A stretch of DNA of 64,000 nucleotides. Origin: Allacma fusca (lineage: Eukaryota; Arthropoda; Collembola; Symphypleona; Sminthuridae). The DNA lies in assembly GCA_947179485.1 (NCBI GenBank), contig OX359247.1, forward strand, positions 2,199,060-2,263,059, given 5' to 3'. The notes beneath the pieces were generated by a model. The model saw only the letters and a program-made list of their open reading frames with translations, was not told the origin of the DNA and did not search any database. How positions within the stretch are numbered: the stretch's first letter is position 1; every line of letters starts with the position of its first letter. Below are positions 1-49,278 of the stretch, piece after piece. The position numbers were made by a program, and so were the translations under genes.

Positions 1-3000
1 AAAAGGCCGGGAATTTTCTTCTTAGCTAAAAGGCCGAGAATTTTCTTCTTAGCTAAAAGGCCGAGAATTTTCTTCTTAGCCAAATAACTAAGAAGTTTTT
101 GTTCTTAGCAAAATAACTAAGAAGTTTTTGTTCTTAGCCAAATAACTAAGAAGTTTTTGTTCTTAGCCAAATAACTAAGAAGTTTTTGTTCTTAGCCAAA
201 TAACTAAGAAGTTTTTGATTTTAGCCAAATAACTGAGAAGTGTTTGTGCTTACCCAATAGGCCTAGAAGTTTTTTTCTTAGCCAAAAGGCCCAAAAGTTT
301 GTTTTTAGAAAGAAGCCGGAAAATTGTTTTGTCTTTACCAAAAAACCCGAAATGTTTTTTTCTTACCTAAAAGGTCCAGAAGTTTTTATTTTTAGCCAAA
401 AGGCTGTGAAGTTTTTGTTCTTAGTAAAAAGGGCTAGGAGGTTTTGTTCTGAGCAAAAGGCCTAGAAGTTTTTGTTCTGAGCCAAAAGGCGGAAAAGTTT
501 TTGTTCTTAGCTAAAATGCAAACAAATTTGGGTTCCCAAAAAAAGGACGGGTGGTTTTTCTCTTAGCCAAAAGGCCGAGAAGTATTTTTTCATAGCCAAA
601 AGGCATAGAAGTTTTTGTTCTTAGCCAAAAGCCCGAGAATTTTTTGGTTTTACCCGAAAGGCCGAGAAGTTTTTTTTCTTAGCCAAAAGGCCGAGAAGAT
701 TTTGTTCTGAGCCAAAAGGCCGTGAAGTTTTTGTTCTTAGCCAAAAGGCCGAGAAGTTTGTGTTCTTATCCAAAAGACCGATGATTTTGTTCTTAGCAAA
801 ATAACTGAGACGTTTCTGTTCTTAGCCAAATAACTGAGAAGGTTTTGTTCTTCTCCAAATAACTGAGAAGGTTTTGTTCTTCTCCAAATAACAGAAGTTT
901 TTGTTCTTAGCCAAATAACAGAAATTTTTGCTCTTAGCCTAAAGGCCGAGAAGTTTGTGTTCTTAGCCAAAAGTCCAAGAAGTTTTTGTTCTTAGCCAAA
1001 TGGCCGAGAAAACTGTTTTCTCAGCCAAAAGGCCCATAAGTTTTCGCTTTTAGATAAAAGGTCTAGAAGTTTCTGTTCTTAGCCAAAACGCCGAAAAACG
1101 TTTCTTCTTAGCCAAAATGCCGAGAAGTTTTTGTTCTTAGCCAAAAGGCCGCGAAGTTTTCGTTCCTAGCCAAAAGGCCGCGAAGTTTTCGTTCCTAGCC
1201 AAAAGACCGCGAAGTTTTCGTTCCTAGCCAAAAGGCCTAGAAGTTTGTGTTCTCAGCTAAAAGGCCGACAATTTTCTTCTTAGCCAAATAACTAAGAAGT
1301 TTTTGTTCTTAGCCAAATAACTAAGAAGTTTTTGTTCTTAGCCAAAAAACTAAGAAGTTTTTGTTCTTAGCCAAATAACTGAGAAGTGTTTGTGCTTACC
1401 TAATAGGCCTAGAAGTGTTTTTCTTAGCCAAAAGGCCCAAACGTTTGTTTTTAGAAAGAAGCCCGAAAATTGTTTTGTCTTTACCAAAAAACCCGAAACG
1501 TTTTTTTCTTACCTAAAAGGTCCAGAAGTTTTTATTTTTAGCCAAAAGGCTGTGAAGTTTTTGTTCTTAGCCAAAAGGCCTAGAAGTTTGTGTTCTTAGC
1601 CAAAAGGCCAAGAAGTTTTAGTTCTTAGCCAAATGGCAGAGAAAATTGTTTTCTCATCCAAAAGGCTCATAAGTTTTTGCTTTTCGATTAAAGGCCTAGA
1701 AGTTTGTGTTCTTAGCTAAAAGGCCGAAAAGTTTTTTTCTAAGCAAAAATGCCGAGAAGTTTCTGTTCTTAGCCAAAACGCCGAAAAACGTTTCTTCTTA
1801 GCCAAAACGCCGAGAAGTTTTTGTTCTTAGCCAAAAGATCGCGAAGTTTTTGTTCCTAGCCAAAAGGCCTAGAAGTTTGTGTTCTTAGCTAAAAAGCCGG
1901 GAATTTTCTTCTTAGCTAAAAGGCCGAGAATTTTCTTCTTAGCTAAAAGGCCGAGAATTTTCTTCTTAGCCAAATAACTAAGAAGTTTTTGTTCTTAGCA
2001 AAATAACTAAGAAGTTTTTGTTCTTAGCCAAATAACTAAGAAGTTTTTGTTCTTAGCCAAATAACTAAGAAGTTTTTGTTCTTAGCCAAATAACTAAGAA
2101 GTTTTTGATTTTAGCCAAATAACTGAGAAGTGTTTGTGCTTACCCAATAGGCCTAGAAGTTTTTTTCTTAGCCAAAAGGCCCAAAAGTTTGTTTTTAGAA
2201 AGAAGCCGGAAAATTGTTTTGTCTTTACCAAAAAACCCGAAATGTTTTTTTCTTACCTAAAAGGTCCAGAAGTTTTTATTTTTAGCCAAAAGGCTGTGAA
2301 GTTTTTGTTCTTAGTAAAAAGGGCTAGGAGGTTTTGTTCTGAGCAAAAGGCCTAGAAGTTTTTGTTCTGAGCCAAAAGGCGGAAAAGTTTTTGTTCTTAG
2401 CTAAAATGCAAACAAATTTGGGTTCCCAAAAAAAGGACGGGTGGTTTTTCTCTTAGCCAAAAGGCCGAGAAGTATTTTTTCATAGCCAAAAGGCATAGAA
2501 GTTTTTGTTCTTAGCCAAAAGCCCGAGAATTTTTTGGTTTTACCCGAAAGGCCGAGAAGTTTTTTTTCTTAGCCAAAAGGCCGAGAAGATTTTGTTCTGA
2601 GCCAAAAGGCCGTGAAGTTTTTGTTCTTAGCCAAAAGGCCGAGAAGTTTGTGTTCTTATCCAAAAGACCGATGATTTTGTTCTTAGCAAAATAACTGAGA
2701 CGTTTCTGTTCTTAGCCAAATAACTGAGAAGGTTTTGTTCTTCTCCAAATAACTGAGAAGGTTTTGTTCTTCTCCAAATAACAGAAGTTTTTGTTCTTAG
2801 CCAAATAACAGAAATTTTTGCTCTTAGCCTAAAGGCCGAGAAGTTTGTGTTCTTAGCCAAAAGTCCAAGAAGTTTTTGTTCTTAGCCAAATGGCCGAGAA
2901 AACTGTTTTCTCAGCCAAAAGGCCCATAAGTTTTCGCTTTTAGATAAAAGGTCTAGAAGTTTCTGTTCTTAGCCAAAACGCCGAAAAACGTTTCTTCTTA

Positions 3001-6000
3001 GCCAAAATGCCGAGAAGTTTTTGTTCTTAGCCAAAAGGCCGCGAAGTTTTCGTTCCTAGCCAAAAGGCCGCGAAGTTTTCGTTCCTAGCCAAAAGACCGC
3101 GAAGTTTTCGTTCCTAGCCAAAAGGCCTAGAAGTTTGTGTTCTCAGCTAAAAGGCCGACAATTTTCTTCTTAGCCAAATAACTAAGAAGTTTTTGTTCTT
3201 AGCCAAATAACTAAGAAGTTTTTGTTCTTAGCCAAATAACTAAGAAGTTTTTGTTCTTAGCCAAATAACTAAGAAGTTTTTGTTCTTAGCCAAATAACTA
3301 AGAAGTTTTTGTTCTTAGCCAAAAGGTCGCGAAGTTTTTGTTCTTAGCCAAAAGGTCGCGAAGTTTTTGTTCCTAGCCAAAAGGCCTAGAAGTTTGTGTT
3401 CTCAGCTAAAAGGCCGACAATTTTCTTCTTAGCCAAATAACTAAGAAGTTTTTGTTCTTAGCCAAATAACTAAGAAGTTTTTGTTCTTAGCCAAATAACT
3501 AAGAAGTTTTTGTTCTTAGCCAAATAACTAAGAAGTTTTTGTTCTTAGCCAAATAACTAAGAAGTTTTTGTTCTTAGCCAAATAACTAAGAAGTTTTTGT
3601 TCTTAGCCAAATAACTAAGAAGTTTTTGATTTTAGCCAAATAACTGAGAAGTGTTTGTGCTTACCCAATAGGCCTAGAAGTTTTTTTCTTAGCCAAAAGG
3701 CCCAAAAGTTTGTTTTTAGAAAGAAGCCGGAAAATTGTTTTGTCTTTACCAAAAAACCCGAAATGTTTTTTTCTTACCTAAAAGGTCCAGAAGTTTTTAT
3801 TTTTAGCCAAAAGGCTGTGAAGTTTTTGTTCTTAGTAAAAAGGGCTAGGAGGTTTTGTTCTGAGCAAAAGGCCTAGAAGTTTTTGTTCTGAGCCAAAAGG
3901 CGGAAAAGTTTTTGTTCTTAGCTAAAATGCAAACAAATTTGGGTTCCCAAAAAAAGGACGGGTGGTTTTTCTCTTAGCCAAAAGGCCGAGAAGTATTTTT
4001 TCATAGCCAAAAGGCATAGAAGTTTTTGTTCTTAGCCAAAAGCCCGAGAATTTTTTGGTTTTACCCGAAAGGCCGAGAAGTTTTTTTTCTTAGCCAAAAG
4101 GCCGAGAAGATTTTGTTCTGAGCCAAAAGGCCGTGAAGTTTTTGTTCTTAGCCAAAAGGCCGAGAAGTTTGTGTTCTTATCCAAAAGACCGATGATTTTG
4201 TTCTTAGCAAAATAACTGAGACGTTTCTGTTCTTAGCCAAATAACTGAGAAGGTTTTGTTCTTCTCCAAATAACTGAGAAGGTTTTGTTCTTCTCCAAAT
4301 AACAGAAGTTTTTGTTCTTAGCCAAATAACAGAAATTTTTGCTCTTAGCCTAAAGGCCGAGAAGTTTGTGTTCTTAGCCAAAAGTCCAAGAAGTTTTTGT
4401 TCTTAGCCAAATGGCCGAGAAAACTGTTTTCTCAGCCAAAAGGCCCATAAGTTTTCGCTTTTAGATAAAAGGTCTAGAAGTTTCTGTTCTTAGCCAAAAC
4501 GCCGAAAAACGTTTCTTCTTAGCCAAAATGCCGAGAAGTTTTTGTTCTTAGCCAAAAGGCCGCGAAGTTTTCGTTCCTAGCCAAAAGGCCGCGAAGTTTT
4601 CGTTCCTAGCCAAAAGACCGCGAAGTTTTCGTTCCTAGCCAAAAGGCCTAGAAGTTTGTGTTCTCAGCTAAAAGGCCGACAATTTTCTTCTTAGCCAAAT
4701 AACTAAGAAGTTTTTGTTCTTAGCCAAATAACTAAGAAGTTTTTGTTCTTAGCCAAAAAACTAAGAAGTTTTTGTTCTTAGCCAAATAACTGAGAAGTGT
4801 TTGTGCTTACCTAATAGGCCTAGAAGTGTTTTTCTTAGCCAAAAGGCCCAAACGTTTGTTTTTAGAAAGAAGCCCGAAAATTGTTTTGTCTTTACCAAAA
4901 AACCCGAAACGTTTTTTTCTTACCTAAAAGGTCCAGAAGTTTTTATTTTTAGCCAAAAGGCTGTGAAGTTTTTGTTCTTAGCCAAAAGGCCTAGAAGTTT
5001 GTGTTCTTAGCCAAAAGGCCAAGAAGTTTTAGTTCTTAGCCAAATGGCAGAGAAAATTGTTTTCTCATCCAAAAGGCTCATAAGTTTTTGCTTTTCGATT
5101 AAAGGCCTAGAAGTTTGTGTTCTTAGCTAAAAGGCCGAAAAGTTTTTTTCTAAGCAAAAATGCCGAGAAGTTTCTGTTCTTAGCCAAAACGCCGAAAAAC
5201 GTTTCTTCTTAGCCAAAACGCCGAGAAGTTTTTGTTCTTAGCCAAAAGGTCGCGAAGTTTTTGTTCCTAGCCAAAAGGCCTAGAAGTTTGTGTTCTTAGC
5301 TAAAAAGCCGGGAATTTTCTTCTTAGCTAAAAGGCCGAGAATTTTCTTCTTAGCTAAAAGGCCGAGAATTTTCTTCTTAGCCAAATAACTAAGAAGTTTT
5401 TGTTCTTAGCAAAATAACTAAGAAGTTTTTGTTCTTAGCCAAATAACTAAGAAGTTTTTGTTCTTAGCCAAATAACTAAGAAGTTTTTGTTCTTAGCCAA
5501 ATAACTAAGAAGTTTTTGATTTTAGCCAAATAACTGAGAAGTGTTTGTGCTTACCCAATAGGCCTAGAAGTTTTTTTCTTAGCCAAAAGGCCCAAAAGTT
5601 TGTTTTTAGAAAGAAGCCGGAAAATTGTTTTGCCTTTACCAAAAAACCCAAAATGTTTTTTTCTTACCTAAAAGGTCCAGAAGTTTTTATTTTTAGCCAA
5701 AAGGCTGTGAAGTTTTTGTTCTTAGTAAAAAGGGCTAGGAGGTTTTGTTCTGAGCAAAAGGCCTAGAAGTTTTTGTTCTGAGCCAAAAGGCGGAAAAGTT
5801 TTTGTTCTTAGCTAAAATGCAAACAAATTTGGGTTCCCAAAAAAAGGACGGGTGGTTTTTCTCTTAGCCAAAAGGCCGAGAAGTATTTTTTCATAGCCAA
5901 AAGGCATAGAAGTTTTTGTTCTTAGCCAAAAGCCCGAGAATTTTTTGGTTTTACCCGAAAGGCCGAGAAGTTTTTTTTCTTAGCCAAAAGGCCGAGAAGA

Positions 6001-7300
6001 TTTTGTTCTGAGCCAAAAGGCCGTGAAGTTTTTGTTCTTAGCCAAAAGGCCGAGAAGTTTGTGTTCTTATCCAAAAGACCGATGATTTTGTTCTTAGCAA
6101 AATAACTGAGACGTTTCTGTTCTTAGCCAAATAACTGAGAAGGTTTTGTTCTTCTCCAAATAACTGAGAAGGTTTTGTTCTTCTCCAAATAACAGAAGTT
6201 TTTGTTCTTAGCCAAATAACAGAAATTTTTGCTCTTAGCCTAAAGGCCGAGAAGTTTGTGTTCTTAGCCAAAAGTCCAAGAAGTTTTTGTTCTTAGCCAA
6301 ATGGCCGAGAAAACTGTTTTCTCAGCCAAAAGGCCCATAAGTTTTCGCTTTTAGATAAAAGGTCTAGAAGTTTCTGTTCTTAGCCAAAACGCCGAAAAAC
6401 GTTTCTTCTTAGCCAAAATGCCGAGAAGTTTTTGTTCTTAGCCAAAAGGCCGCGAAGTTTTCGTTCCTAGCCAAAAGGCCGCGAAGTTTTCGTTCCTAGC
6501 CAAAAGACCGCGAAGTTTTCGTTCCTAGCCAAAAGGCCTAGAAGTTTGTGTTCTCAGCTAAAAGGCCGACAATTTTCTTCTTAGCCAAATAACTAAGAAG
6601 TTTTTGTTCTTAGCCAAATAACTAAGAAGTTTTTGTTCTTAGCCAAATAACTAAGAAGTTTTTGTTCTTAGCCAAATAACTAAGAAGTTTTTGTTCTTAG
6701 CCAAATAACTAAGAAGTTTTTGTTCTTAGCCAAAAGGTCGCGAAGTTTTTGTTCTTAGCCAAAAGGTCGCGAAGTTTTTGTTCCTAGCCAAAAGGCCTAG
6801 AAGTTTGTGTTCTTAGCTAAAAGGCCGGGAATTTTCTTCTTAGCTAAAAGGCCGAGAATTTTCTTCTTAGCTAAAAGGCCGAGAATTTTCTTCTTAGCTA
6901 AAAGGCCGAGAATTTTCTTCTTAGCCAAATAACTAAGAAGTTTTTGTTCTTAGCAAAATAACTAAGAAGTTTTTGTTCTTAGCCAAATAACTGAGAAGTG
7001 TTTGTGCTTACCCAATAGGCCTAGAAGTTTTTTTCTTAGCCAAAAGGCCCAAAAGTTTGTTTTTAGAAAGAAGCCGGAAAATTGTTTTGTCTTTACCAAA
7101 AAACCCGAAATGTTTTTTTCTTACCTAAAAGGTCCAGAAGTTTTTATTTTTAGCCAAAAGGCTGTGAAGTTTTTGTTCTTAGTAAAAAGGGCTAGGAGGT
7201 TTTGTTCTGAGCAAAAGGCCTAGAGGTTTTTGTTCTGAGCCAAAAGGCGGAAAAGTTTTTGTTCTTAGCTAAAATGCAAACAAATTTGGGTTCCCAAAAA
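1..7300. repeat. 3,411-bp higher-order repeat, about two copies
   Basis: The same long segments recur exactly 3,411 bp apart: 244 and 3,655, 737 and 4,148, 1,390 and 4,801, 2,134 and 5,545, 2,627 and 6,038. Inside the unit a shared segment recurs at 1,890 bp and then 1,521 bp, so the large unit is made of two unequal sub-blocks. Copies are almost identical (for instance only a few substitutions near 5,630-5,650), which points to recent amplification or conversion. A truncated fifth sub-block starts near 6,800. Confidence 0.93.
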
Positions 7301-7865
7301 AAGGACGGGTGGTTTTTCTCTTAGCCAAAAGGCCGAGAAGTATTTTTTCATAGTAAAAAGGCATAGAAGTTTTTGTTCTTAGCCAAAAGCCCGAGAATTT
7401 TTTGGTTTTACCCGAAAGGCCCAGAAGTTTTTTTTCTCAGCCAAAAGGCCCAAACGTTTGTTTTTAGAAAGAAGCCCGAAAATTGTTTTGTCTTTACCAA
7501 AAAACCCGAAACGTTTTTTTCTTACCCAAAAGGTCCAGAAGTTCTTATTTTTAGCCAAAAGGCTGTGAAGTTTTTGTTCTTAGTAAAAAGGGCTAGGAGG
7601 TTTTGTTCTGAGCAAAAGGCCTAGAAGTTTTTGTTCTGAGCCAAAAGGCGGAGAAGTTTTTGTTCTTAGCCAAAAGGCCGAAAAGTTTGTGTTCTTATCC
7701 AAAAGACCGATGATTTTGTTCTTAGCAAAATAACTGAGACGTTTCTGTTCTTAGCCAAATAACTGAGAAGATTTTGTTCTTCTCCAAATAACTGAGAAGT
7801 TTTTGTACTTAACCAAATAACTGAGAAGTTTTTGTTCTTAGCCAAATAACTGAGAAGTTTTTGTT

Positions 7866-8760
7866 CTTAGCCAAATGACAGAAGTTTTTGTTCTAAGTTA
7901 AAAGCCCGAAAATTGTTTTGTCTTTACCAAAAAACCCGAAACGCTTTTTCTTACCTAAAAGGTCCAGAAGTTTTTATTTTTAGCCGATGGCTGTGAAAAT
8001 TTTGTTCTTAGTGAAAAGGCATAGGAGGTTTTGTTCTGAGCAAAAGGCCTAGAAGTTTTTGTTCTGATCCAAAATGCAAACAAATTAGGGTTCCCAAAAA
8101 AAGGACGGGTGGTTTTTTTCTTAGCCAAACGGCCTACAAGTTTGTGTTCTTAGTCAAAAGGCCAAGCATTTTGTTCTTAGGCGAACATGACGAGAAGTCT
8201 GTGTTCTTAGCTAAAAGGCCGAAAGGTTTTTGGTTTTCGTGAAAAGGCCGCGAAGTTTTCGTTCCTAGCCAAAAGGCCTAGAAGTTTGTGTTCTTAGCTA
8301 AAAGGCCGAGAATTTTCTTCTTAGCCAAATAACTAAGAAGTTTTTGTTCTTAGCCAAATAACTAAGAAGTTTTTGTTCTTAGCCAAATGACAGAAGTTTT
8401 TGTTCTAAGTGAAAAGCCCGAAAATTGTTTTGTCTTTACCAAAAAACCCGAAACGCTTTTTCTTACCTAAAAGGTCCAGAAGTTTTTATTTTTAGCCGAT
8501 GGCTGTGAAAATTTTGTTCTTAGTGAAAAGGCATAGGAGGTTTTGTTCTGAGCAAAAGGCCTAGAAGTTTTTGTTGTGATCCAAAATGCAAACAAATTAG
8601 GGTTCCCAAAAAAAGGACGGGTGGTTTTTTTCTTAGCCACACGGCCTACAAGTTTGTGTTCTTAGTCAAAAGGCCAAGCATTTTGTTCTTAGGCGAACAT
8701 GACGAGAAGTCTGTGTTCTTAGCTAAAAGGCCGAAAGGTTTTTGGTTTTCGTGAATAGGC
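7866..8760. repeat. 512-bp tandem duplication within the satellite
   Basis: The segment around 7,901-8,245 recurs about 512 bp downstream. Landmarks are AAAGCCCGAAAATTG at 7,901 and 8,413, and CCAAAATGCAAAC at 8,069 and 8,581. A handful of substitutions distinguish the copies. Confidence 0.85.
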
Positions 8761-10669
8761 CGAGAAGTTTTTGTTCTTAGCGAAAAGGCCTAGAAGTTTT
8801 TGTTCTTATCCAAAAGGCCGATGATTTTGTTCTTAGCAAAATAACTGAGACGTTTCTATTCTTAGCCAAATAACTGAGGTTATGTTCTTCTCCAAATAAC
8901 TGAGAAGTTTTTGTACTAAACGAAATAACTTAGAAGTTTTTGTGCATAGGTAAATGGCCGAGAAGTTTTTGTTCTCAGCCAAAAGCCCTAGAAATTTCTG
9001 TTCTTAGATAACAGGCCGAGAAGATTGTGTTCTTAGCAAAATGGCCGAGTAGTTTTCGCTCTTAGCCAAAAGGCCGAGAAGTTTTTCTTTTTACCTGAAA
9101 GGCCGAGAACTTTTTCTTTTTACCCGAAAGGCCGAGCTGTTTTTTCTCACCCAAAAGACCCAGAAGTGTTCGTTTTTAGCCCAAGGGCCGAGAGTTTTTT
9201 TCCTTTAATAAAAAATCCGAAAAGTGTTTTTCTGAGCCAAAAGGCCGAGAAGTATTTTTTCATAGCAAAAAGGCATAGAAGTTTTTGTTCTTAGCCAAAA
9301 GCCCGACAATTTTTTGGTTTTACCCGAAAGGCCGAGAAGTTTTTTTTCTTAGCCAAAAGGCCGAGAAGATTTTGTTCTGAGCCAAAAGGCCGTGAAGTTT
9401 TTGTTCTTAGCCAAAAGGCCGAGAAGTTTGTGTTCTTATCCAAAAGACCGATGATTTTGTTCTTAGCAAAATAACTGAGACGTTTCTGTTCTTAGCCAAA
9501 TAACTGAGAAGGTTTTGTTCTTCTCCAAATAACTGAGAAGTTTTTGTACTTAACCAAATAACTGAGAAGTTTTTGTTCTTTGGTAATTGGCCGAGAAGAT
9601 TTTATTCTTAGCCAAAAGCCCGAGAAATATTTCTTCTTAGCCATACCCAAAAGGCCCAGAAGTGTTCGTTTTTAGCCATAGGGCCGAGAGTTTTTTTCCT
9701 TTAATAAAAAATCCGAAAAGTTTTTTTCTAAGCCAAAAGGCCGAGAAGAATTTTTTCATAGCAAAAAGGCTTAGAGGTTTTTGTTCTTAGCCAAAAGCCC
9801 GAGAATTTTTTCGTTTTACCCGGAAGGCCGAGAAGTTTTTTTGCTTAGCCAAAAGGCCGAGAAGTTTTTGTTTTGAGCCAAAAGGCCTTGAAGTTTTTGT
9901 TCTGAGCCAAAAGGCCTTGAAGTTTTTGTTCTTAGCCAAAAGACCGAGAAGTTTGTGTTCTTAGCAAAAAGGCCAAAAGGGTTTTCCTCTTAGCCAAAAG
10001 GCTGATAAGTTTTTCTTCTAAGCCAACAGGCCTACACGTTTGTGTTCTTAGCCCAAAGGCCAAAAGGGTTTTGCTCTTAGCCAAAAGGCCTAAGTTCTTA
10101 GCCAAATAACTGAAAAGCTTTGTTCTTACCCAATATACCGAAAAGTTTTTTTCTTAGCCAAAAGACCCAGAATTTTGGTTTTTAGCCAGAAGGCCGAAAA
10201 TTTGTTTTGTCTTTACCAAAAAACCTGAAAAGGTTTTTTCTTACCTAAAATGTCCAGTAGTTTTTACATTTAGCCAAAACGCCGATAAGTTTTTTTTCTT
10301 AGCCGAAAAGCCAAAAAGTGCTTGTTCTTAGCGAAAAGGCCGAAAAGTTTTTTTCTAAGCCTAAAGGCCTAGAAGTTCCTTTTCTTAGCCAAAAGGCCTA
10401 GAAGTGTTTGTTTTTAGAAAGAAGCTCGAAAATTGTTTTGTCTTTACCAAAAAACCCGATTTTATTTTTAGCCCAAAAGGCCGTGACGTTTTTGTTCTGA
10501 GCCAAAAGGCCGAGAAGTTTTTGTTCTTAGCTAAAATGCAAACAAATTTTGGTTCCCAAAAAAAGGACGGGTGGTTTTTCTCTTAGCCAAACGGCCGAGA
10601 AGTTTTGCTCTTAGCCAAAAGGCCTAAAAAATTGTGTTCTTAGCCAAATTGCCGAGCAGTTTTCGTTCC

Positions 10670-11350
10670 TAGCGAAAAGGTCCTGAAGTGTTCGTTTTTA
10701 GCCAAAAGCCCGAGAATGTTTTTCCTTTACAAAAAACCCGAAACGTTTTTATTCAGCCAAAAGATTTAGAAGTTTGTGTTCTTAGCCAAAACTCCGAGAA
10801 TTTTGTTCTTAGCCAAATAACAGGTTTTGTTCTTATCCAAATAACTGAGAAGTTTTTGTTCTTAGCCAAATAATTGAGAAGTTTTTGTTGTTAGTTAAAT
10901 AACAGAAATTTTTGCTCTTAGCCTAAAGGCCGAGAATTTTGTGTTCTTAGCCAAATGGCCGAGCAGTTTTCGTTCTTAGCGAAAAGGTCCTGAAGTGTTC
11001 GTTTTTAGCCAAAAGCCCGAGAATGTTTTTCCTTTACAAAAAACCCGAAAAGTTTTTATTCAGCCAAAAGACTTAGAAGTTTGTGTTCTTAGCCAAAACT
11101 CCGAGAATTTTGTTCTTAGCCAAATAACAGGTTTTGTTCTTATCCAAATAACTGAGAAGTTTTTGTTCTTAGCCAAATAATTGAGAAGTTTTTGTTGTTA
11201 GTTAAATAACAGAAATTTTTGCTCTTAGCCTAAAGGCCGAGAATTTTGTGTTCTTAGCCAAATGGCCGAGCAGTTTTCGTTCTTAGCGAAAAGGTCCTGA
11301 AGTGTTCGTTTTTAGCCAAAAGCCCGAGAATGTTTTTCCTTTACAAAAAA
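10670..11350. repeat. 307-bp tandem higher-order repeat
   Basis: The block beginning with the frame at 10,688 recurs at 10,995, 307 bp later, and a third partial copy begins near 11,302. The copies differ at only a few positions. Outside this block the array is more divergent. Confidence 0.88.
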
Positions 11351-12187
11351 CCCGAAAAGTTATTTTCTAAGCCAAATGGCGGAGAAGTTTTCGTTGGTAG
11401 CCAAAACGCCGAAAAACTTTTCTTCTTAGCCAAATAGCCGAGATGTTTGTTCTTAGCGGAAAAGGCAAAACGTTTGTGCTCTTAGCCAAAAGGCCGAGAA
11501 GATTTTTATCTCAGTCAAAAGGCCGAAAAGGTTTTCTTTTAAGTCAGAAAGCCTAGAAGTTTGAGTTCTTAGCCAAAAGGCCGAGAATTTTGTTCTTAGC
11601 CAAATAACTGAGACGTTACTGTTCTTAGCCAAATGGCCGAGAAGTTTTTGTTTTTAGGTAAAAGGCCGAGAGGTTTTTTTCCCTGAAAGATCGAGAAGTT
11701 TTCTTCTTAGCCAAAAATGTTCGTTTTTAGCCAAAGGCCGAGAATTTTTTTCCTTTACCAAAAACTCCGAAAAGTTTTTTCTGCCAAATGGCCTAGGAGT
11801 TTTTGTTCTGAGCCAAACGGCCGTAAAGTATTTTTCTTAGCCAAAAGGCCGAGAAGTTTTTGTTCTGAGCCAAAAGGCCTAGAAGATTGTGTTCTTAGCC
11901 AAAAGGCCGAGAAATATTTGTTCTTAGCCTTACGTCGAGAAGTTTTTGTTTTTGGCGAAAAGGCCTAGAAGTTTTTGTTCTGAGCCAAAAGGCCGTAAAG
12001 GTTTTGTTCTCAGCCAAAAGGCCGAGAAGTTTTTGTTTTAAGCTTAAATGCAAACAAATTTTGGTTCCAAGAAAAAAGGACGAGTGGTTTTTTTCTTAGG
12101 CCAAACGGCCGAGAAGTTTTGTTCTTAGCCAAAAGGCCTATAAATTTGTGTACTTAGCCAAAGGGCCGAGATTTTTTGGTTCTTAAC

Positions 12188-14058: not shown

Positions 14059-14066
14059 TTCTTAAC

Positions 14067-29966: not shown

Positions 29967-31990
29967 ATTATTATTATTATTATGGTCTTTATTTCAGTGT
30001 CAAAGATATCAATACAAGTATTGGTTTTCATTCCAGACACTACAGAGTCAAAATCATTCACAAGTACAATCAAGAGTAGGCCGAGTCATTTTACCAAGTG
30101 TAGTAATTATTGACATAATTATATAAGTATATTATCTGAGTTACGGTTTACCAGGATAAGTTTAGTTAGATTCCTAAGAAAAGTTTGGCTAAGAAAAAAA
30201 GCTTATCGGCCTTTTAGCTAAGAACAAAAATACCTGAACCTTTGTGCTAAGAAAAAAACTTCTCAGCTTTTGGCTAAAATCAAAGACTTATAGGACTTTT
30301 GGCTAAGAACAAAAGCTCCTCAGTCTTTTGGAAAGGAACAAAAACATCTCGGAATTTGGGCTATGAAAAAAACTAATCATCATCTTGGCTCCTCGCCTTT
30401 TTGGCCAAGATCAAAAACTTCTGGGAATTTTGGCTAAGAACAAAACCTTCTCGGTCTTTTGGCTGAAACCAACGACTTCTAAGCGTTTTGGCTGAGAACA
30501 AAACGTTTTTAGCCTTTTGGCTAAGAAAAAACGCTCCTCGGCTTTTTTGTTAAAGAAAAAACAACTCAGCATTTTGGCTAGGAACAAAGACTTCTCGGCC
30601 TTCTCGTTAAGAATAAAACCCTCTCAGCCTTTTGGCTAGCAAGAAAAACTTCTCGGCGTTTTGGTCAAGAACAAAAACTTGTGGGACTTTTGGCTAAGTA
30701 AAAAAGCTTCTCGGCATTTTGGCCAAGAACAAAAACATCTCGGCCTTTGGGATAAGAACAAAAACTTCTCAGAATAATATTCTACCAATGAAACCTTGTC
30801 GGCCTATTAGCTGAGAAAAAATTGTGTCGGGCTTTTGGCCAAGAAGAAATGCTTCTCGGTCTTGTCACTAAGAATAAAAACTTCTCGTCCTTTTGGCTCA
30901 CAACAAAAACATCTCGACCTTTTGGCTCACAACAAAAACATCTCGACCTTTTGGATAAGAACAAAAACTTCTCGTCCTTTTGGTTGAGAACAAAAACATC
31001 TCGGCCTTTTGGCTCACAACAAAAACATCTCGACCTTTTGGCTCACAACAAAAACATCTCGACCTTTTGGATAAGAACAAAAACTTCTCGTCCTTTTGGT
31101 TGAGAACAAAAACATCTCGGCCTTTTGGCTAAGAACAAAGACTTCTCGCGTTTTTTGGCTAAGATGAAATGCTTCTGGGCGTTTGGGTCAAGAACAAAAA
31201 CTTCTCGTCCTTTTGGTTGAGAACAAAAACATCTCGGCCTTTGGGATAAGAACAAAAAATTCTCGTCCTTTTTGGTTGGGAACAAAAACATCTCGACCTT
31301 TTGGATAAGAACAAAAACTTCTCGTCCTTTTGGTTGAGAACAAAAACATCTCGGCCTTTTGGCTAAGAACAAAGACTTCTCGTGTTTTTTGGCTAAGAAG
31401 AAATTCTTCTCGTCCTTTTGGCTAAGAGCAAAAACTTCTCGGCTTTTGGCTAAGAACAAAAGACTTCTCGTGTTTTTTGGCTAAGAACAAAAACTTCTCG
31501 TGTTTTTTGGCTAAGAAGAAATGCTTCTCGGCGTTTTGGTCAAGAACAAAAACTTGTGGGACTTTTGGCTAAGTAAAAACGCTTCTCGGCATTTTGGCCA
31601 AGAACAAAAACTTCTCGGAATTTTGGCTAAGAACAAAAGGTTCCCGGCCTTTTGGCTCAGAACAAAAGGATCTCGGCCTTTTGGATGAGAACAAAAACTT
31701 CTCGGCCTTTTGGCTAAAACCAAAGAATTCTCGCGTTTTTGGCTAAGATGAAATGCTTCTGGGCGTTTGGGTCAAGAACAAAAACTTCTCGTCCTTTTGG
31801 TTGAGAACAAAAACATCTCGGCCTTTGGGATAAGAACAAAAACTTCTCAGAATAATATTCTACCAATGAAACCTCGTCGGCCTATTAGCTGAGAAAAAAT
31901 TGTGTCGGGCTTTTGGCCAAGAAGAAATGCTTCTCGGTCTTGTCACTAAGAACAAAAACTTCTCGTCCTTTTGGCTCACAACAAAAACAT
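29065..31990. repeat. Duplicated block, copy A (partner 35,315-38,166)
   Basis: Long collinear identity to 35,315-38,166, at an offset of 6,251 bp near 29,109, 6,394 bp near 29,358 and 6,176 bp after 30,183. The first offset change is extra satellite in copy B (about 35,605-35,748). The second is the retrotransposon tail present only in copy A. The four-copy 654-bp repeat lies between the two blocks. Confidence 0.88.
29967..30182 (-). mobile_element. 3' tail of a non-LTR retrotransposon or SINE (about 215 bp)
   Basis: Read on the minus strand the insert ends with AATAAAGACC and then a run of TAA triplets (29,967-29,985 on the plus strand as ATT repeats). This is typical of 5'-truncated LINE or LINE-tailed SINE copies. 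The duplicated block at 36,340-36,370 has uninterrupted satellite at the equivalent point, so the empty site is visible and fixes the borders to within a few bases. Any target duplication is only about 3 bp. Confidence 0.75.
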
Positions 31991-32270
31991 CTCGACCTTT
32001 TGGCTCACAACAAAAACATCTCGACCTTTTGGATAAGAACAAAAACTTCTCGTCCTTTTGGTTGAGAACAAAAACATCTCGGCCTTTTGGCTCACAACAA
32101 AAACATCTCGACCTTTTGGCTCACAACAAAAACATCTCGACCTTTTGGATAAGAACAAAAACTTCTCGTCCTTTTGGTTGAGAACAAAAACATCTCGGCC
32201 TTTTGGCTAGGAACAAAGACTTCTCGCGTTTTTTGGCTAAGATGAAATGCTTCTGGGCGTTTGGGTCAAG

Positions 32271-34890
32271 AACAAACACTTCTCGTCCTTTTGGTTGAGA
32301 ACAAAAACATCTCGGCCTTTGGGATAAGAACAAAAAATTCTCGTCCTTTTTGGTTGGGAACAAAAACATCTCGACCTTTTGGATAAGAACAAAAACTTCT
32401 CGTCCTTTTGGTTGAGAACAAAAACATCTCGGCCTTTTGGCTAAGAACAAAGAATTCTCGTGTTTTTTGGCTAAGAAGAAATTCTTCTCGTCCTTTTGGC
32501 TAAGAGCAAAAGCTCCTCGGCCTTTTGGGAAGGAACAAAAACATCTCGGAATTTGGGCTATGAAAAAAACTTATCATCATCTTGGCTCCTCGACTTTTTG
32601 GCCAAGATCAAAAACTTCTGGGAATTTTGGCTAAGAACAAAAACTTTTCGGCCTTTTATCTAAAAACAAAACTTCTCGGCCTTTTGGCTAAGAAGAACAG
32701 CTATTCGGCCTTTTGGCCAAGAACAAAACCTTCTCGGTCTTTTGGCTGAACAAAACGACTTCTAAGCGTTTTGGCTGAGAACAAAACGTTTTTAGATTTT
32801 TGGCTAAGAAGAAACGCTCCTCGGCCTTTTGGCTAAGAACAAAAACTTCTCGTTCTTTTTGCTCAGAACAAAAACACCTTGGCCTTTTCGCTGAGAAGAA
32901 GAGCTTCGCCACCTTTCGGCTAAGAACAAACACTTCTCGTCCTTTTGGTTGAGAACAAAAACATCTCGGCCTTTGGGATAAGAACAAAAAATTCTCGTCC
33001 TTTTTGGTTGGGAACAAAAACATCTCGACCTTTTGGATAAGAACAAAAACTTTTCGTCCTTTTGGTTGAGAACAAAAACATCTCGGCCTTTTGGCTAAGA
33101 ACAAAGACTTCTCGTGTTTTTTGGCTAAGAAGAAATTCTTCTCGTCCTTTTGGCTAAGAGCAAAAGCTCCTCGGCCTTTTGGGAAGGAACAAAAACATCT
33201 CGGAATTTGGGCTATGAAAAAAACTTATCATCATCTTGGCTCCTCGACTTTTTGGCCAAGATCAAAAACTTCTGGGAATTTTGGCTAAGAACAAAAACTT
33301 TTCGGCCTTTTATCTAAAAACAAAACTTCTCGGCCTTTTGGCTAAGAAGAACAGCTATTCGGCCTTTTGGCCAAGAACAAAACCTTCTCGGTCTTTTGGC
33401 TGAACAAAACGACTTCTAAGCGTTTTGGCTGAGAACAAAACGTTTTTAGATTTTTGGCTAAGAAGAAACGCTCCTCGGCCTTTTGGCTAAGAACAAAAAC
33501 TTCTCGTTCTTTTTGCTCAGAACAAAAACACCTTGGCCTTTTCGCTGAGAAGAAGAGCTTCGCCACCTTTCGGCTAAGAACAAACACTTCTCGTCCTTTT
33601 GGTTGAGAACAAAAACATCTCGGCCTTTGGGATAAGAACAAAAAATTCTCGTCCTTTTTGGTTGGGAACAAAAACATCTCGACCTTTTGGATAAGAACAA
33701 AAACTTCTCGTCCTTTTGGTTGAGAACAAAAACATCTCGGCCTTTTGGCTAAGAACAAAGACTTCTCGTGTTTTTTGGCTAAGAAGAAATTCTTCTCGTC
33801 CTTTTGGCTAAGAGCAAAAGCTCCTCGGCCTTTTGGGAAGGAACAAAAACATCTCGGAATTTGGGCTATGAAAAAAACTTATCATCATCTTGGCTCCTCG
33901 ACTTTTTGGCCAAGATCAAAAACTTCTGGGAATTTTGGCTAAGAACAAAAACTTTTCGGCCTTTTATCTAAAAACAAAACTTCTCGGCCTTTTGGCTAAG
34001 AAGAACAGCTATTCGGCCTTTTGGCCAAGAACAAAACCTTCTCGGTCTTTTGGCTGAACAAAACGACTTCTAAGCGTTTTGGCTGAGAACAAAACGTTTT
34101 TAGATTTTTGGCTAAGAAGAAACGCTCCTCGGCCTTTTGGCTAAGAACAAAAACTTCTCGTTCTTTTTGCTCAGAACAAAAACACCTTGGCCTTTTCGCT
34201 GAGAAGAAGAGCTTCGCCACCTTTCGGCTAAGAACAAACACTTCTCGTCCTTTTGGTTGAGAACAAAAACATCTCGGCCTTTGGGATAAGAACAAAAAAT
34301 TCTCGTCCTTTTTGGTTGGGAACAAAAACATCTCGACCTTTTGGATAAGAACAAAAACTTTTCGTCCTTTTGGTTGAGAACAAAAACATCTCGGCCTTTT
34401 GGCTAAGAACAAAGACTTCTCGTGTTTTTTGGCTAAGAAGAAATTCTTCTCGTCCTTTTGGCTAAGAGCAAAAGCTCCTCGGCCTTTTGGGAAGGAACAA
34501 AAACATCTCGGAATTTGGGCTATGAAAAAAACTTATCATCATCTTGGCTCCTCGACTTTTTGGCCAAGATCAAAAACTTCTGGGAGTTTTGGCTAAGAAC
34601 AAAAACTTTTCGGCCTTTTATCTAAAAACAAAACTTCTCGGCCTTTTGGCTAAGAAGAACAGCTATTCGGCCTTTTGGCCAAGAACAAAACCTTCTCGGT
34701 CTTTTGGCTGAACAAAACGACTTCTAAGCGTTTTGGCTGAGAACAAAACGTTTTTAGATTTTTGGCTAAGAAGAAACGCTCCTCGGCCTTTTGGCTAAGA
34801 ACAAAAACTTCTCGTTCTTTTTGCTCAGAACAAAAACACCTTGGCCTTTTCGCTGAGAAGAAGAGCTTCGCCACCTTTCGGCTAAGAACA
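32271..34890. repeat. 654-bp higher-order repeat, four copies
   Basis: Landmarks recur at exactly 654 bp: AACAAACACTTCTCGTCC at 32,271 and 32,925, and identical frames at 32,437, 33,091, 33,745 and 34,399, and at 32,688, 33,342, 33,996 and 34,650. The central copies differ at only a few bases, so amplification is recent. 654 is not a multiple of 29, so the unit contains monomer-length indels. Confidence 0.95.
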
Positions 34891-35314
34891 AAACTTCTAA
34901 GCCTTTTGGCTAAGAAGAAATGCTTCTCGGTCTTTTGGCTAAGAAGAAATGCTTCTCGGTCTTTTGGCTAAGAACAAAAAGCTTTGGTGCTTTTGGCTCA
35001 GGACAAAAAAATCTCGGCCTTTTGGATAAGAACAAAAACTTATCAGGTAATTTGCTAAAAATCAAACCTTGTCTGCCTTTTGGCTAAGAATCAAGACTTC
35101 TGTACCTTTTAGCTAATAAAAAAAATCTCGGCGTTTCAGCTAAGCAAAAGCCCTCGGTTTTTTGGGTAACAACAAAAAACTCTCGGCCTTTTGGCTAAAA
35201 TCAAAGACTTCTAGGCCTTTTGGCTAAGAACAAAAACTTATGTACCTTTCAGCTATGAAGAAAATCTCTGCAATTCAACTCAGAAAAAGAACATCTCTCC
35301 GCGTTTTGGCTAAG

Positions 35315-38166
35315 AACAAAAACTTCTTGGCCTTTTGGTAAAAAATAAAACCTTTTCAGACTTTTGGCTAAGAAGCAAAGCTTCTCGGCCTTTTGGCTAA
35401 GAATAAAAACTCCTGAACCTTTGTTCTAAGAAAAAAACTTCTCAGCTTTTGGCTCAAATCCAAGACTTCTAGGCCTTTTCGCTAAGATGAAAAGCTCCTC
35501 GGCCTTTTGGGCAAGAACAAAAACTTCTCCTAATTTTGGCTGAAACCAAAAACTGCTCATCGTTTTGGCTTAGAACAAAACTTCTCGGATTTTTGGCTAA
35601 GAAAAAAAACTTCTCGGATAATTTGCTACCAATCAAACCTTGTCGGCCGTTTGGCTAGGAACAAAGACTTCTGTACCTTTTAGCTAATAAAATAAATCCC
35701 GGCGTATCAATTTAGAAAAAAAACCTCTCGGCCCTTTGGCTAAGAACAAAGACTTCACGGGTTTTTCTGGCTAAGAAGATAACTTCGGCGTTTTGTGTAA
35801 GAACAAAAACTTCTAGGCCCTTTGGCTAAGAACAAAACCTTTACAGCATTTTGGCTAAGCAAAAACTTCTCGGCCTTTTGGTCAAGAACAAAAAAATCTC
35901 AGCATTTTGGCTAAGAACAAAAACTTCGCGGCCTTTTGGCTAAGAAAAAAACCCTCTGTAAATTTTAGATAATAAAATAATTTCGGCGTTTCACTTTAGA
36001 AAAAAACCTTCGGCGTTTTGCTAAGAACAAAACTTCTAGGCCTTTTGGCAAACAACAAAATCTTCCCAGCGCTTTGGCTAAGAAAAACATTTTGGACTTT
36101 TGGCTAAGAAAAACAAAATCTCAGAATTTTGGATCAGAACAAAGGTTTCTCGGCGTTTTCGTTCAGAATAAAACCTTTTCAGCCTTTTGGCTAAGAAGAA
36201 ACTCTTCTCAGCCTTTTGGCTAAAATCAAAAGACTTCCAGGCCTTTTCGCTAGGAAGAAAAGCTAATCGGCCTTTTGGCCAATAAAAAAACTTCTCAGCA
36301 TCTTGGCTAAGAACAAAAACTTCTCGGCATTTTGGTTAAGAATAAAACCTTCTGAGCCTTTTGGCTAAGAAAAAAAGCTTATCGGCCTTTTAGCTAAGAA
36401 CAAAAATGCCTGAACCTTTGTGCTAAGAAAAAAACTTCTCAGCTTTTGGCTAAAATCAAAGACTTATAGGACTTTTGGCTAAGAACAAAAGCTCCTCAGT
36501 CTTTTGGAAAGGAACAAAAACATCTCGGAATTTGGGCTATGAAAAAAACTAATCATCATCTTGGCTCCTCGCCTTTTTGGCCAAGATCAAAAACTTCTGG
36601 GAATTTTGGCTAAGAACAAAACCTTCTCGGTCTTTTGGCTGAAACCAACGACTTCTAAGCGTTTTGGCTGAGAACAAAACGTTTTTAGCCTTTTGGCTAA
36701 GAAAAAACGCTCCTCGGCTTTTTTGTTAAAGAAAAAACAACTCTGCATTTTGGCTAGGAACAAAGACTTCTCGGCCTTCTCGTTAAGAATAAAACCCTCT
36801 CAGCCTTTTGGCTAGCAAGAAAAACTTCTCGGCGTTTTGGTCAAGAACAAAAACTTGTGGGACTTTTGGCTAAGTAAAAAAGCTTCTCGGCATTTTGGCC
36901 AAGAACAAAAACATCTCGGCCTTTGGGATAAAAACAAAAACTTCTCAGAATAATATTCTACCAATGAAACCTTGTCGGCCTATTAGCTGAGAAAAAATTG
37001 TGTCGGGCTTTTGGCCAAGAAGAAATGCTTCTCGGTCTTGTCACTAAGAACAAAAACTTCTCGTCCTTTTGGCTCACAACAAAAACATCTCGACCTTTTG
37101 GCTCACAACAAAAACATCTCGACCTTTTGGATAAGAACAAAAACTTCTCGTCCTTTTGGTTGAGAACAAAAACATCTCGGCCTTTTGGCTCACAACAAAA
37201 ACATCTCGACCTTTTGGCTCACAACAAAAACATCTCGACCTTTTGGATAAGAACAAAAACTTCTCGTCCTTTTGGTTGAGAACAAAAACATCTCGGCCTT
37301 TTGGCTAAGAACAAAGACTTCTCGCGTTTTTTGGCTAAGATGAAATGCTTCTGGGCGTTTGGGTCAAGAACAAAAACTTCTCGTCCTTTTGGTTGAGAAC
37401 AAAAACATCTCGGTCTTTGGGATAAGAACAAAAAATTCTCGTCCTTTTTGGTTGGGAACAAAAACATCTCGACCTTTTGGATAAGAACAAAAACTTCTCG
37501 TCCTTTTGGTTGAGAACAAAAACATCTCGGCCTTTTGGCTAAGAACAAAGACTTCTCGTGTTTTTTGGCTAAGAAGAAATTCTTCTCGTCCTTTTGGCTA
37601 AGAGCAAAAACTTCTCGGCTTTTGGCTAAGAACAAAAGACTTCTCGTGTTTTTTGGCTAAGAACAAAAACTTCTCGTGTTTTTTGGCTAAGAAGAAATGC
37701 TTCTCGGCGTTTTGGTCAAGAACAAAAACTTGTGGGACTTTTGGCTAAGTAAAAACGCTTCTCGGCATTTTGGCCAAGAACAAAAACTTCTCGGAATTTT
37801 GGCTAAGAACAAAAGGTTCGCGGCCTTTTGGCTCAGAACAAAAGGATCTCGGCCTTTTGGATGAGAACAAAAACTTCTCGGCCTTTTGGCTAAAAACAAA
37901 GAATTCTCGCGTTTTTGGCTAAGATGAAATGCTTCTGGGCGTTTGGGTCAAGCACAAAAACTTCTCGTCCTTTTGGTTGAGAACAAAAACATCTCGGCCT
38001 TTGGGATAAGAACAAAAACTTCTCAGAATAATATTCTACCAATGAAACCTCGTCGGCCTATTAGCTGAGAAAAAATTGTGTCGGGCTTTTGGCCAAAAAG
38101 AAATGCTTCTCGGTCTTGTCACTAAGAACAAAAACTTCTCGTCCTTTTGGCTCACAACAAAAACGT
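35315..38166. repeat. Duplicated block, copy B (partner 29,065-31,990)
   Basis: Same landmarks as copy A (for example ACTTCACGGGTTTTTCTGGC at 35,752 and 29,358) without the 215-bp insertion. A 1,078-bp spacing (36,958 to 38,036) repeats the one seen in copy A (30,782 to 31,860), so the duplication post-dates that smaller repeat. Confidence 0.88.
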
Positions 38167-39285
38167 CTCGACCTTTTGGATAAGAACAAAAACTTCTCGT
38201 CCTTTTGGTTGAGAACAAAAACATCTCGGCCTTTTGGCTAAGAACAAAGACTTCTCGTGTTTTTTGGCTAAGAAGAAATGCTGTTCTTGTTTTGGTCAAG
38301 AACAAAAACTTGTGGGACTTTTGGCTAAGAAGAAATGCTTCTCGGTCTTTTTTCTAAGAACGAAAACTTCTCGGCTTTTTGGCTAAGAACAAAAACTTCT
38401 CGTGTTTTTTGGCTAAGAAGAAATGCTTCTCGGCGTTTTGGTCAAGAACAAAAACTTGTGGGACTTTTGGCTAAGTAAAAAAGCTTCTCGGCATTTTGGC
38501 CAAGAACAAAAACTTCTCGGAATTTTGGCTAAGAACAAAAGGTTTGCGGCCTTTTGGCTCAGAACAAAAGGATCTCGGCCTTTTGGATGAGAACAAAAAC
38601 TTCTCGGCCTTTTGGCTTAAAACAAAGAATTCTCGCGTTTTTGGCTAAGATGAAATGCTTCTGGGCGTTTGGGTCAAGAACAAAAACTTCTCGTCCTTTT
38701 GGTTGAGAACAAAAACATCTCGGCCTTTGGGATCAGAACAAAAAATTCTCGTCCTTTTTGGTTGGGAACAAAAACATCTCGGCCTTTGGGATAAGAACAA
38801 AAACTTCTCAGAATAATATTCTACCAATGAAACCTCGTCGGCCTATTAGCTGAGAAAAAATTGTGTCGGGCTTTTGGCCAAGAAGAAATGCTTCTCGGTC
38901 TTGTCACTAAGAACAAAAACTTCTCGTCCTTTTGGCTCACAACAAAAACATCTCGACCTTTTGGATAAGAACAAAAACTTCTCGTCCTTTTGGTTGAGAA
39001 CAAAAACATCTCGGCCTTTTGGCTAAGAACAAAGACTTCTCGTGTTTTTTGGCTAAGAAGAAATTCTTCTCGTCCTTTTGGCTAAGAGCAAAAACTTCTC
39101 GGCTTTTGGCTAAGAACAAAAGACTTCTCGTGTTTTTTGGCTAAGAACAAAAACGTTTCGGCCTTTTGGTTAAGAACAAAAGCTTCTCGGCCTTTTGGCT
39201 AAGATGAAAAATTTCTCGGCCTTTTTTCTAAGCACAAAAACTTGCCTTTTTGGCGAAAAACAAACACCTCTCGGGCCGGAAATTT

Positions 39286-39409
39286 AGAAAAGAAAGCCAA
39301 GAACCTTAGCCAAAAGGTTCAGAAGTTTCTATTTTTAGCCAAAAGACCGAGACGTTTTTTTCTTAGCTGAAACGCCGACAAGATTTTGTTTTTAGCTAAA
39401 AGGTACAGA
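39286..39409 (-). repeat. 29-bp U2-like satellite, antisense again (block 5)
   Basis: After CTCTCGGGCCGGAAATTTAG the monomers are TTCTTAGCC-type again, so the sense-oriented stretch is bounded on both sides. The block ends at GGTACAGA, the target duplication of hAT element 3. Confidence 0.9.
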
Positions 39410-40861
39410 CAAAGGTGGGCCTCTCCCCTATATGTAGGACGTACAAGTAGCAAACTATAGGCTACAAAAAAAATCTCATGTTAATTGTAGGTATTATAGG
39501 ATAGGGGGATAACTTGTTGTGTAGATTCCCTATAAAATGTGTTGGGCATAATAACTGATTCATATAAATGTAGGAGTCTTTTTTTTTCAAAAGAGCCATT
39601 CCCATAATGAATCATTTTTTTGGAATATGTACATATAATTCATATACATACAATATAAATAGTGTGAGTAATATTGAGGCCAAATATTTTTGGGCTATAA
39701 CCAACCAATCTTAAATTATTAAAAAAATAATTTGGGTCTAGTTGAGCTGCGGCACGGTTCCAAAGCATGGAGCGTGATAGGGCTTTCTGTTTACCGCGAA
39801 GGCGCTACCCTTATGTTACGTTGGCAGGGGACTCCACTCCTCGTCCACTACAGCGAGCAAAGCAATGCTTGCATGCTGGCTGTATGTATTCGCATACAAT
39901 CCATGCGTGCTTGGTAACATGTGCACAACGCCTTAACTAGATATGTATATAAATTACCCGTTTCGGATTTCCTCCGATTTGACTGCCGGCAGATGCAAAT
40001 ATGCACTTTTTCCAAATTTTAAAATGTAGCTTTTATTCTTCCCTTGAGTTTAGACTGTTTAAAAAGTGCATATTTGCGTCTGCCGGCACTCAAAAAAAAT
40101 TGCATAGTTTCAAAAATGTGCATGTGATTTTTTTAAAAAATCCGAAATTTTGATTTTACAATGGGGAAAAAATCATGAGTGCAGTAGTTAATGGGAGAAT
40201 ATATTTGAGATAGCCAATTTTTTAATATTTAAATTAGTAAGGCTGTAATAAATTATTGTATTTTTCGGGTTTTTTCGGTTTTTTGACCTTCCCATTGGGA
40301 TTCGCGGCAAAAATAAAATTGTAGATTTTTTTTCATTCAATTACGCATCTGATGGGCCCTATAAAAATATTTTATAAAATAGTGACCTTCACGGGTGGCC
40401 CTTTTCAAAAAAACAGACTCGTAGGCTAAATGTTGGCGCACATTTTACATGCATTTATATGTTAGGTTGATGTACTTACTATGCTGTGAACATTTTCTAC
40501 TGTTTAAATAGTGCTTCCTTAAATTTTTTTACTAAAATTGATGAGTAGAAATGAACACCAATTTGACAGGGGAAATCCTTGTGTAGGGTAACAACTCAGC
40601 CGTTCGTATATCAGCGTAGATTCCCTATAAACTGTTACATATTACTCATAGGCGCAAATATAGGCTACAATTATGTAGGCGTAAATGTAGGCTATAGTTT
40701 TACTTTTTAAAAAAGTAGGCATCTAGGCAGGCTGTCGAATAATCCTTCCATATATGTCGGTATATTTTTTAGCGACATTAATGTAGGCAAAATGTAGGCA
40801 TGATCGGGTATTAAAAATATATGTAGAATATAGGCGAGGCAAACTATTTTGCCCACCTTTG
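39410..40861. mobile_element. Non-autonomous hAT element 3 (1,452 bp)
   Basis: Terminal inverted repeats CAAAGGTGGGC and GCCCACCTTTG are flanked by the perfect 8-bp duplication GGTACAGA (39,402-39,409 and 40,862-40,869). Short TGTAGGC-type motifs cluster near both ends (39,436-39,495 and 40,660-40,845), as expected for transposase binding sites. No transposase frame is visible. This is a different family from elements 1 and 2. Confidence 0.92.
39984..40088. repeat. Nested 105-bp inverted repeat inside hAT element 3
   Basis: Arms of about 28 bp (TGCCGGCAGATGCAAATATG… and its inverted partner ending TCTGCCGGCA) differ at one position and flank a 49-bp spacer. It could be a small MITE nested in the hAT, or an internal hairpin of it. 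No target duplication was found. Confidence 0.6.
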
Positions 40862-41330
40862 GGTACAGAAGTATTAGTTCTTAGCCAAAAGGCTGAAAAA
40901 TATTGGCTCTTAGCCAAAAGATCGAGAAGTTTTTGTTCTGAGCCAAAATGCCCAATAAGTTGTGAACTTAGCGAAAACTGGAAAAGATTTGATGTTAGCC
41001 AAGAGGCCGAAAAGATTTTGATCTTAGCCAAAATGCCTTGAAATTTGTGAACTGACCGATATCCCGAGAAGTAATGATCTGAGCCAAGAGGCCGAGAAGT
41101 TCTTGTTCTTAGCCAAAAGGCCGAGAAGTTTTTGTTCTTTGCCAAAAGGCCGAGAAGTTTTTGTTCTTGGCTAAAAAACCCGAGATGGATCAAATAATAA
41201 AAATAAGATCAAAAAACCCGTCTTTGATATTAGCCCGACTTCCCAGAAAGTTGTAAACTTAGAAAATACCAGAAAATCTATGATCTAAGCGGAGAGGCTG
41301 AAAAGTTTTTTTCTTAGCCAAAAGGCTAAG
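40862..41330 (-). repeat. 29-bp U2-like satellite, terminal degenerate edge
   Basis: Recognisable antisense monomers continue to about 41,180. They become ragged to about 41,330 and stop where the minus-strand coding-like frame begins. Higher divergence at the array edge fits the usual decay of satellite borders. Confidence 0.85.
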
Positions 41331-49222: not shown

Positions 49223-49278
49223 TTTATTGGCGCAGCCTGCAGGATAGTGTTAATTTAAACACTTTTTGTTTGAAAATC

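Follow-up and report, generated by a model that had tools for sequence, protein, structure and literature searches.

The stretch of DNA analysed here (the window; 64,000 nucleotides, C10:2199060-2263059) carries a 29-bp tandem repeat that closely resembles the 5' end of U2 snRNA, which raises the question of whether this satellite descends from a U2 gene and, if so, how it arose and whether it does anything for its host. We examined the repeat within the window, on the surrounding contig and in searches of the genome (393 Mb in 91 contigs).

The window contains part of a main array of 63 kb of 29-bp monomers (C10:2177474-2240396), present in both orientations and interrupted by transposon insertions. 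The monomers are arranged head to tail in tandem, as expected of a U2-derived satellite. An earlier note had described positions 1 to 41330 of the window as satellite; the 29-bp array is confirmed, but it begins about 21.6 kb upstream of the window and is broken up by other elements. Tandem Repeats Finder reports period-29 rows, which occupy the greater part of positions 1-41176, in the window at 1-12189, 18513-20660, 21079-21383, 21397-22190, 23968-39239 and 40867-41176. A parse against a circular consensus, which spans insertions and in which five low-scoring segments on the other strand (44-60 points) inside the array were ignored, divides the array into segments at C10:2177474-2220441 (-), 2220456-2238333 (+), 2238364-2238462 (-) and 2239926-2240396 (-).

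In window coordinates, the left block of the satellite occupies 1-12187 on the minus strand and continues upstream to C10:2177474. On the same strand lie a satellite remnant flanked by two insertions (14059-14400), a diverged block (18513-20660) and a block in which some monomers read GATCAA, that is, have the U2 state T at nucleotide 27 (T27; 21079-21382). The strand switches at about 21383-21397, and the right block is on the plus strand, with its first part at 21397-22302 and the remainder at 23970-39274; a short inverted piece (39305-39403) and a peripheral block (40867-41337) are again on the minus strand. Longer periods of about 1890 and 1976 bp are present in the left block, and four Tandem Repeats Finder rows in the right block, at 32487-34636, have a spacing of 654 bp.

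Two hAT-like elements have inserted into the satellite, one at 12188-14058, with CAGTG-ended inverted repeats and an 8-bp duplication (TTCTTAAC), and the other at 22303-23969, with an 8-bp duplication (GCTAAGAG). Both have CAGTGCTCGG inverted repeats and GGGTAC-rich subterminal repeats, and a hAT-like relative (C10:259603-261079) adjoins a separate satellite array at 256 kb on the same contig. A further insertion lies between satellite pieces at 39410-40861, with CAAAGGTGGGC inverted repeats and an 8-bp duplication (GGTACAGA), and a stretch of about 4.1 kb (about 14400-18510) that interrupts the satellite contains open reading frames that appear transposase-like by eye. Inspection by eye also gave a transposon-derived look to open reading frames of 158, 262, 221 and 418 aa at 16481-17746 (-) and 57017-59323 (-), and a BEL/Pao-type retroelement look to those of 958, 241 and 203 aa at 49069-53207 (+).

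When at least 20 of 29 matching bases are required, the consensus monomer has 461 plus-strand and 483 minus-strand matches in positions 1-41330 of the window, and U2 nt 5-33 used as the query has 414 and 436, respectively; neither query has a match in positions 41331-64000. An indel-tolerant parse, which keeps a monomer if it has at most 2 gaps and at least 17 matches in the 26 non-diagnostic columns, yields 1768 monomers in the whole main array and 1041 in the window (522 minus, 519 plus), in line with the earlier estimate of about a thousand copies in both orientations. Over all arrays, 1866 of 2161 near-full monomers were kept; the other 295 fell short of 17 matches in the 26 columns and were left out.

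As the reference for host U2 we used the complete gene at C10:296665-296855. The consensus monomer (CTTCTCGGCCTTTTGGCTAAGAACAAAAA) differs from host U2 nt 5-33 (CTTCTCGGCCTTTTGGCTAAGATCAAAGT) at three positions and is identical at 26 of 29, which is the figure that the earlier note had given; its observation that the monomer has GAACAA where U2 has GATCAA is likewise correct against host U2, and the host U2 genes carry the 20-base string on which the comparison was built. The monomer can be described as 27 U2 bases (nt 5-31, stem-loop I) followed by two non-U2 bases, which are mostly AA (911 of 1135 monomers in the left block and 63 of 80 in the 256-kb array). When 29-nt segments of U2 were slid along the array in the window, those starting at nt 1-9 gave 514-850 matches, the start at nt 5 giving the most (850); from nt 23 onward no segment gave more than 13. 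The homology ends just ahead of the branch-point-pairing stretch GTGTAGTA, so the monomer does stop short of the branch-point-recognition sequence, as had been proposed. Among the 100 of 174 genome matches listed, CTTCTCGGCCTTTTGGCTAAGATCAA occurs exactly in five places, four of them in U2 genes or U2 5' fragments and one in a satellite monomer. The window itself has no match at the gathering score to any Rfam family, including U2 (RF00004), and by this criterion contains no functional U2 gene. A candidate for a longer U2 remnant at window 21203-21235 (U2 nt 6-38, 90.9%) was also considered; intermediate forms nearby suggest, by eye, drift from the consensus, and the extension over U2 nt 32-38 was therefore rejected.

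The pattern and DNA searches of the genome place all arrays found on contig C10. This holds for 91 of 91 matches that differ from the main consensus at no more than one base (90 of them belong to the main array and one lies at 256 kb), for 33 of 33 matches to the T27 pattern with one mismatch, and for 10 of 10 matches in a DNA search with the 256-kb array (the array itself, 242 kb and 2213-2270 kb), which was non-exhaustive, with six of eight candidates scored and the left block itself absent from the matches. A lone 20/29 match at C10:265560 is at chance level, as a shuffled control gives one.

Diverged arrays outside the main array, above all the 256-kb array (C10:255593-258084), often retain the U2 base T27, which has been mostly lost in the main array. 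Monomers at C10:255915-256031 read GATCAAAAA, and one of them has U2 nt 5-31 exactly (27/27). Within the main array, T27 is found in 20 of 1135 kept monomers of the left block and 31 of 517 of the right block, in 7 of 85 and 2 of 13 in the smaller mid and 2213-kb blocks, and in 7 of 16 at the window end (40867-41337 counted together with the piece at 39305-39403), and in the separate arrays in 28 of 80 (256 kb), 5 of 13 (242 kb) and 4 of 5 (2270 kb); these monomers are non-independent and three of the groups are small. Among distinct monomers lacking A27, the share of T is 26/27 in the 256-kb array, 5/6 at 242 kb, 4/5 at 2270 kb, 7/8 at the window end, 18/27 in the right block and 6/28 in the left block. 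Of the 707 distinct monomers, 121 have a base other than A at nt 27, and in 75 of these it is T; at six other A columns the corresponding share of T is 13-53%. In the most diverged class (89 monomers) T27 reaches 22.5%, versus a mean of 6.3% and a maximum of 9.9% at the six other A columns. The signal is not unique to this position, since nt 26 shows a similar excess of T in the 256-kb array (16 of 18 non-A bases). At the two non-U2 positions, the most diverged class has 2.2% G32 and 6.7% T33, and the least diverged class 10.5% of each; as diverged monomers do not shift to U2 at nt 32 and 33, those bases may never have been U2 and possibly represent a junction. The earlier note had asked whether the most diverged monomers move away from U2, and the answer is divided: in separate and peripheral arrays nt 27 shifts toward U2, and nt 32 and 33 do not. 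The pattern at nt 27 supports T27 as the ancestral state and, with it, descent from U2.

An Rfam search of the genome returned at least 31 U2 matches, at least 28 of them over the cut-off, with two above 160 bits and 26 at 106-118 bits; the counts are lower bounds, since 46 of 27616 candidates were scored. On C10 there are two U2 loci, one at 287147-296855, which contains the complete gene, and one at 2158161-2163026, which contains a split gene, and their flanks are inverted copies of each other with 92-96% identity. In the split gene, which is the one near the main array, 4672 bp separate nt 1-39 (C10:2158161-2158199) from nt 38-192 (2162872-2163026), and both parts are 100% identical to the complete gene. 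The nearest array edge is 14.4 kb from the split gene; at the other locus it is 29 kb from the nearest U2 3' part and 39 kb from the complete gene, and a small array remnant at 2270 kb is 107 kb from U2. Relative to U2, the array is downstream at both loci, and the block closest to U2 runs in the opposite orientation; the right block of the main array is oriented as U2. Arrays joined to full or partial U2 genes, which had been suggested as a check, were not found in the stretches examined, where the closest monomer block is the one 14.4 kb away, and at four of the six U2 loci no array is present within the 3-70 kb examined at each. By our own arithmetic, the probability that an array falls by chance within 60 kb of one of six U2 loci is about 0.2%. 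Because the two C10 loci are related, the two array regions may go back to one event. Apart from the element described below, hAT-like stretches and a few unidentified repeats, homology of the flanks extends no further than about 1.25 kb beyond the 3' end of U2 (22 of 1972 BLAST rows inspected, with rows starting in the 242-kb and 256-kb satellites left out), so that shared descent of the array regions by a common segmental duplication is possible rather than demonstrated.

The 4.67-kb insert in the split U2 gene has a match to RVT_1 (E 7.4e-22) in its middle piece and none to Pfam in the other two pieces, and by eye it has a zinc-finger-like N-terminus and an RLE-like C-terminus. For an open relative of the insert elsewhere in the genome, the best PDB matches are R2 proteins (E 2.4e-52), and a protein search with the element found two matching proteins, both unnamed. 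In the fetched stretches, U2 3' parts adjoining the element start at nt 38 or 39 in 12 of 12 cases, and four U2 5' fragments run into non-U2 sequence at nt 38/39; host U2 has one extra base before the insertion site relative to human U2. The 3' U2 flank of Utopia is reported to start at nt 39, and both the insertion site and the duplication of at most 2 bp agree with the published description of arthropod Utopia (PMC4640811). Judged from its sequence, the element that splits the U2 genes is a probable Utopia-type element, that is, a U2-specific, RLE-encoding non-LTR retrotransposon of the NeSL clade. It shares the U2 insertion site with Utopia, and its RT domain and the R2 proteins as closest solved relatives would be in keeping with this assignment. 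The element is a neighbour and possible cause of the satellite, not the satellite itself, and none lies inside the array: a 5666-base query that includes the element matches only itself in C10:2140001-2273000 at E<=1e-10. Elsewhere in the genome, at C12:45483221-45614001, U2 3' parts follow one another in a long, regularly spaced run (4510 and about 6713 bp apart); in the fetched stretches they adjoin Utopia-type copies, and the element appears to fill this U2 locus. The U2 copy at C12:22463978-22464169 is complete but diverged (about 84% identical, with altered stem-loop I) and is either a variant U2 gene or a pseudogene.

The 26/29 identity, the arrays that keep T27 and the placement near U2 loci lead us to conclude that the satellite descends from U2, as the earlier note had proposed on the strength of the 5'-end match, which the identity with host U2 now supports. 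That the likeness is due to chance or to convergence of an A/T-rich satellite might be argued from the monomer being largely T- and A-rich, but this reading is for practical purposes refuted. It would have to produce 26-27 identical bases in arrays that lie near U2 loci; the reversed pattern has no genome match in five of five pattern searches; and 200 shuffled monomers gave a mean of 0.22 matches in positions 1-41330 of the window with strands summed (maximum 37), versus 944 for the real monomer, which agrees with the earlier judgement that chance identity is very unlikely. As to the route, a U2 5' fragment (nt 5-31 plus two junction bases) would have been tandemly duplicated at or near a U2 locus on C10. 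The Utopia-type element, by splitting U2 at nt 38/39, would leave orphan 5' fragments free of selection, and one of these is the likely seed. The array would then have expanded by slippage and unequal exchange, been partly inverted, been homogenised in its left block as units of about 1.9-2.0 kb, and been invaded by hAT-like transposons; growth by slippage and unequal exchange is suggested by the 29-bp unit together with the long periods of the left block and the regular spacing in the right block. We regard the account as a whole, in which a U2-descended satellite was seeded by an element-orphaned fragment, grew by slippage and unequal exchange and makes no functional RNA, as probable.

The first duplication could have come about either by slippage or by template jumping of a retrotransposon RT. 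In the latter case, the RT of a Utopia-type element would have jumped on a short U2 5' RNA, leaving head-to-tail copies with two untemplated joining bases, from which the satellite then grew. Template jumping with nontemplated addition by the RT of a non-LTR element is described (PMC8857657), and both the composition of the monomer, 27 U2 bases and two mostly AA non-U2 bases, and the presence next door of a U2-targeted element with an R2-like RT are in keeping with it. The same monomer would, however, also result from an ordinary 29-bp tandem duplication followed by two base changes, and no array is joined to an element in C10:2140001-2273000 at E<=1e-10; a U2 RNA fragment with such ends is not known to us. 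We therefore consider template jumping unlikely as the starting event.

The earlier note further suggested that the array, if transcribed, could yield decoys of the U2 stem-loop or antisense RNA that titrates U2 or its proteins. For a T27 monomer the predicted fold is hairpin I of U2 (-8.2 kcal/mol, z -2.50); a consensus trimer likewise has a good predicted fold (z -4.67), and monomers are available in both orientations. In the best fold of the trimer, however, only the middle monomer forms a U2-like hairpin and the outer two pair together, and in core columns the mean likeness of kept monomers to the consensus is only 79-85%. No covariation is seen in stem-loop I over the 707 distinct monomers: for each of the seven stem pairs the observed count differs by at most 12 sequences from that expected under independence (551 against 554.1 in one case), and larger deviations occur in two of the three slid controls. 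The motif GAGCCGTTTG, a putative promoter element that is exact in five of six U2 5' flanks inspected, is absent from the main array, and its sole occurrence in C10:2140001-2273000 lies 61 bases before the split U2 gene. The fold, the lack of covariation, the lack of an Rfam match in the window at gathering score and the lack of the motif lead us to read the array as a neutral satellite that most likely makes no functional RNA; a decoy or antisense role, which gains no support here, appears very improbable. Less probable still is a reading in which the array records past Utopia invasion and acts back on the element, with a seed that could stem from the RT jumping on U2 RNA. If this were true, elements inserted in U2 genes and transcribed from the U2 promoter with a leader of U2 nt 1-38 would make hybrid transcripts, and these Utopia-U2 hybrids could be silenced by small RNAs from the array that are complementary to U2 nt 5-31.

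U2-derived satellites are already in print in the form of U2_sat, the U2 gene-derived satellite repeats of Ciona, which are reported to be occasionally hit by Utopia/YURE-type elements (Kojima and Jurka 2015; PMC4640811). As in U2_sat, the monomer here is homologous to the U2 snRNA gene (26/29 in the main array, 27/27 in one 256-kb monomer), and both host genomes carry non-LTR elements that are related to Utopia and, here probably, of the RLE type; judged from the published description of U2_sat, the two differ in that no element was found in the array here (E<=1e-10). Among titles, beginnings of abstracts and selected passages (PMC4935994, PMC4233971), U2_sat (PMC4640811) was the only snRNA-derived satellite found. 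Since U2_sat is in print, we regard the present array as a further U2-derived satellite, a U2 5' fragment probably amplified by slippage and unequal exchange. Sequence derived from snRNA is also present in snRNA-headed SINEs (SINEU), but SINEs are dispersed and retroposed, whereas the array here is local and tandem. Birth from an RNA gene is reported for a tomato satellite derived from rDNA (PMC2679016) and proposed for alpha satellites, whose suggested snoRNA origin rests on unpublished work of its authors (PMC4233971); in both, the RNA genes are others than U2.

The present array adds the exact U2 segment, the intermediate arrays and a connection with U2 loci that a Utopia-type element has split. 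The parent gene of this satellite is known to the base, intermediates keep an ancestral base, and the parent loci are disrupted by a site-specific retrotransposon, which makes it possible to trace in related species how an RNA gene gives rise to a satellite. A function would matter more, and nothing in the present analysis points to one; apart from its unusual ancestor, the array has the look of an ordinary satellite with no function. The host of U2_sat is a tunicate, and the host here is unlike one, as AGA in COX1 reads as serine under code 5 at a position that we take to be an invariant serine. The 14.9-kb contig that carries this gene (C91), taken as mitochondrial, reads well with invertebrate code 5. 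Besides this contig, near-full-length COX1 with TGA codons has four matches on C5, C8 and C12, which are either nuclear mitochondrial insertions or misassembly.
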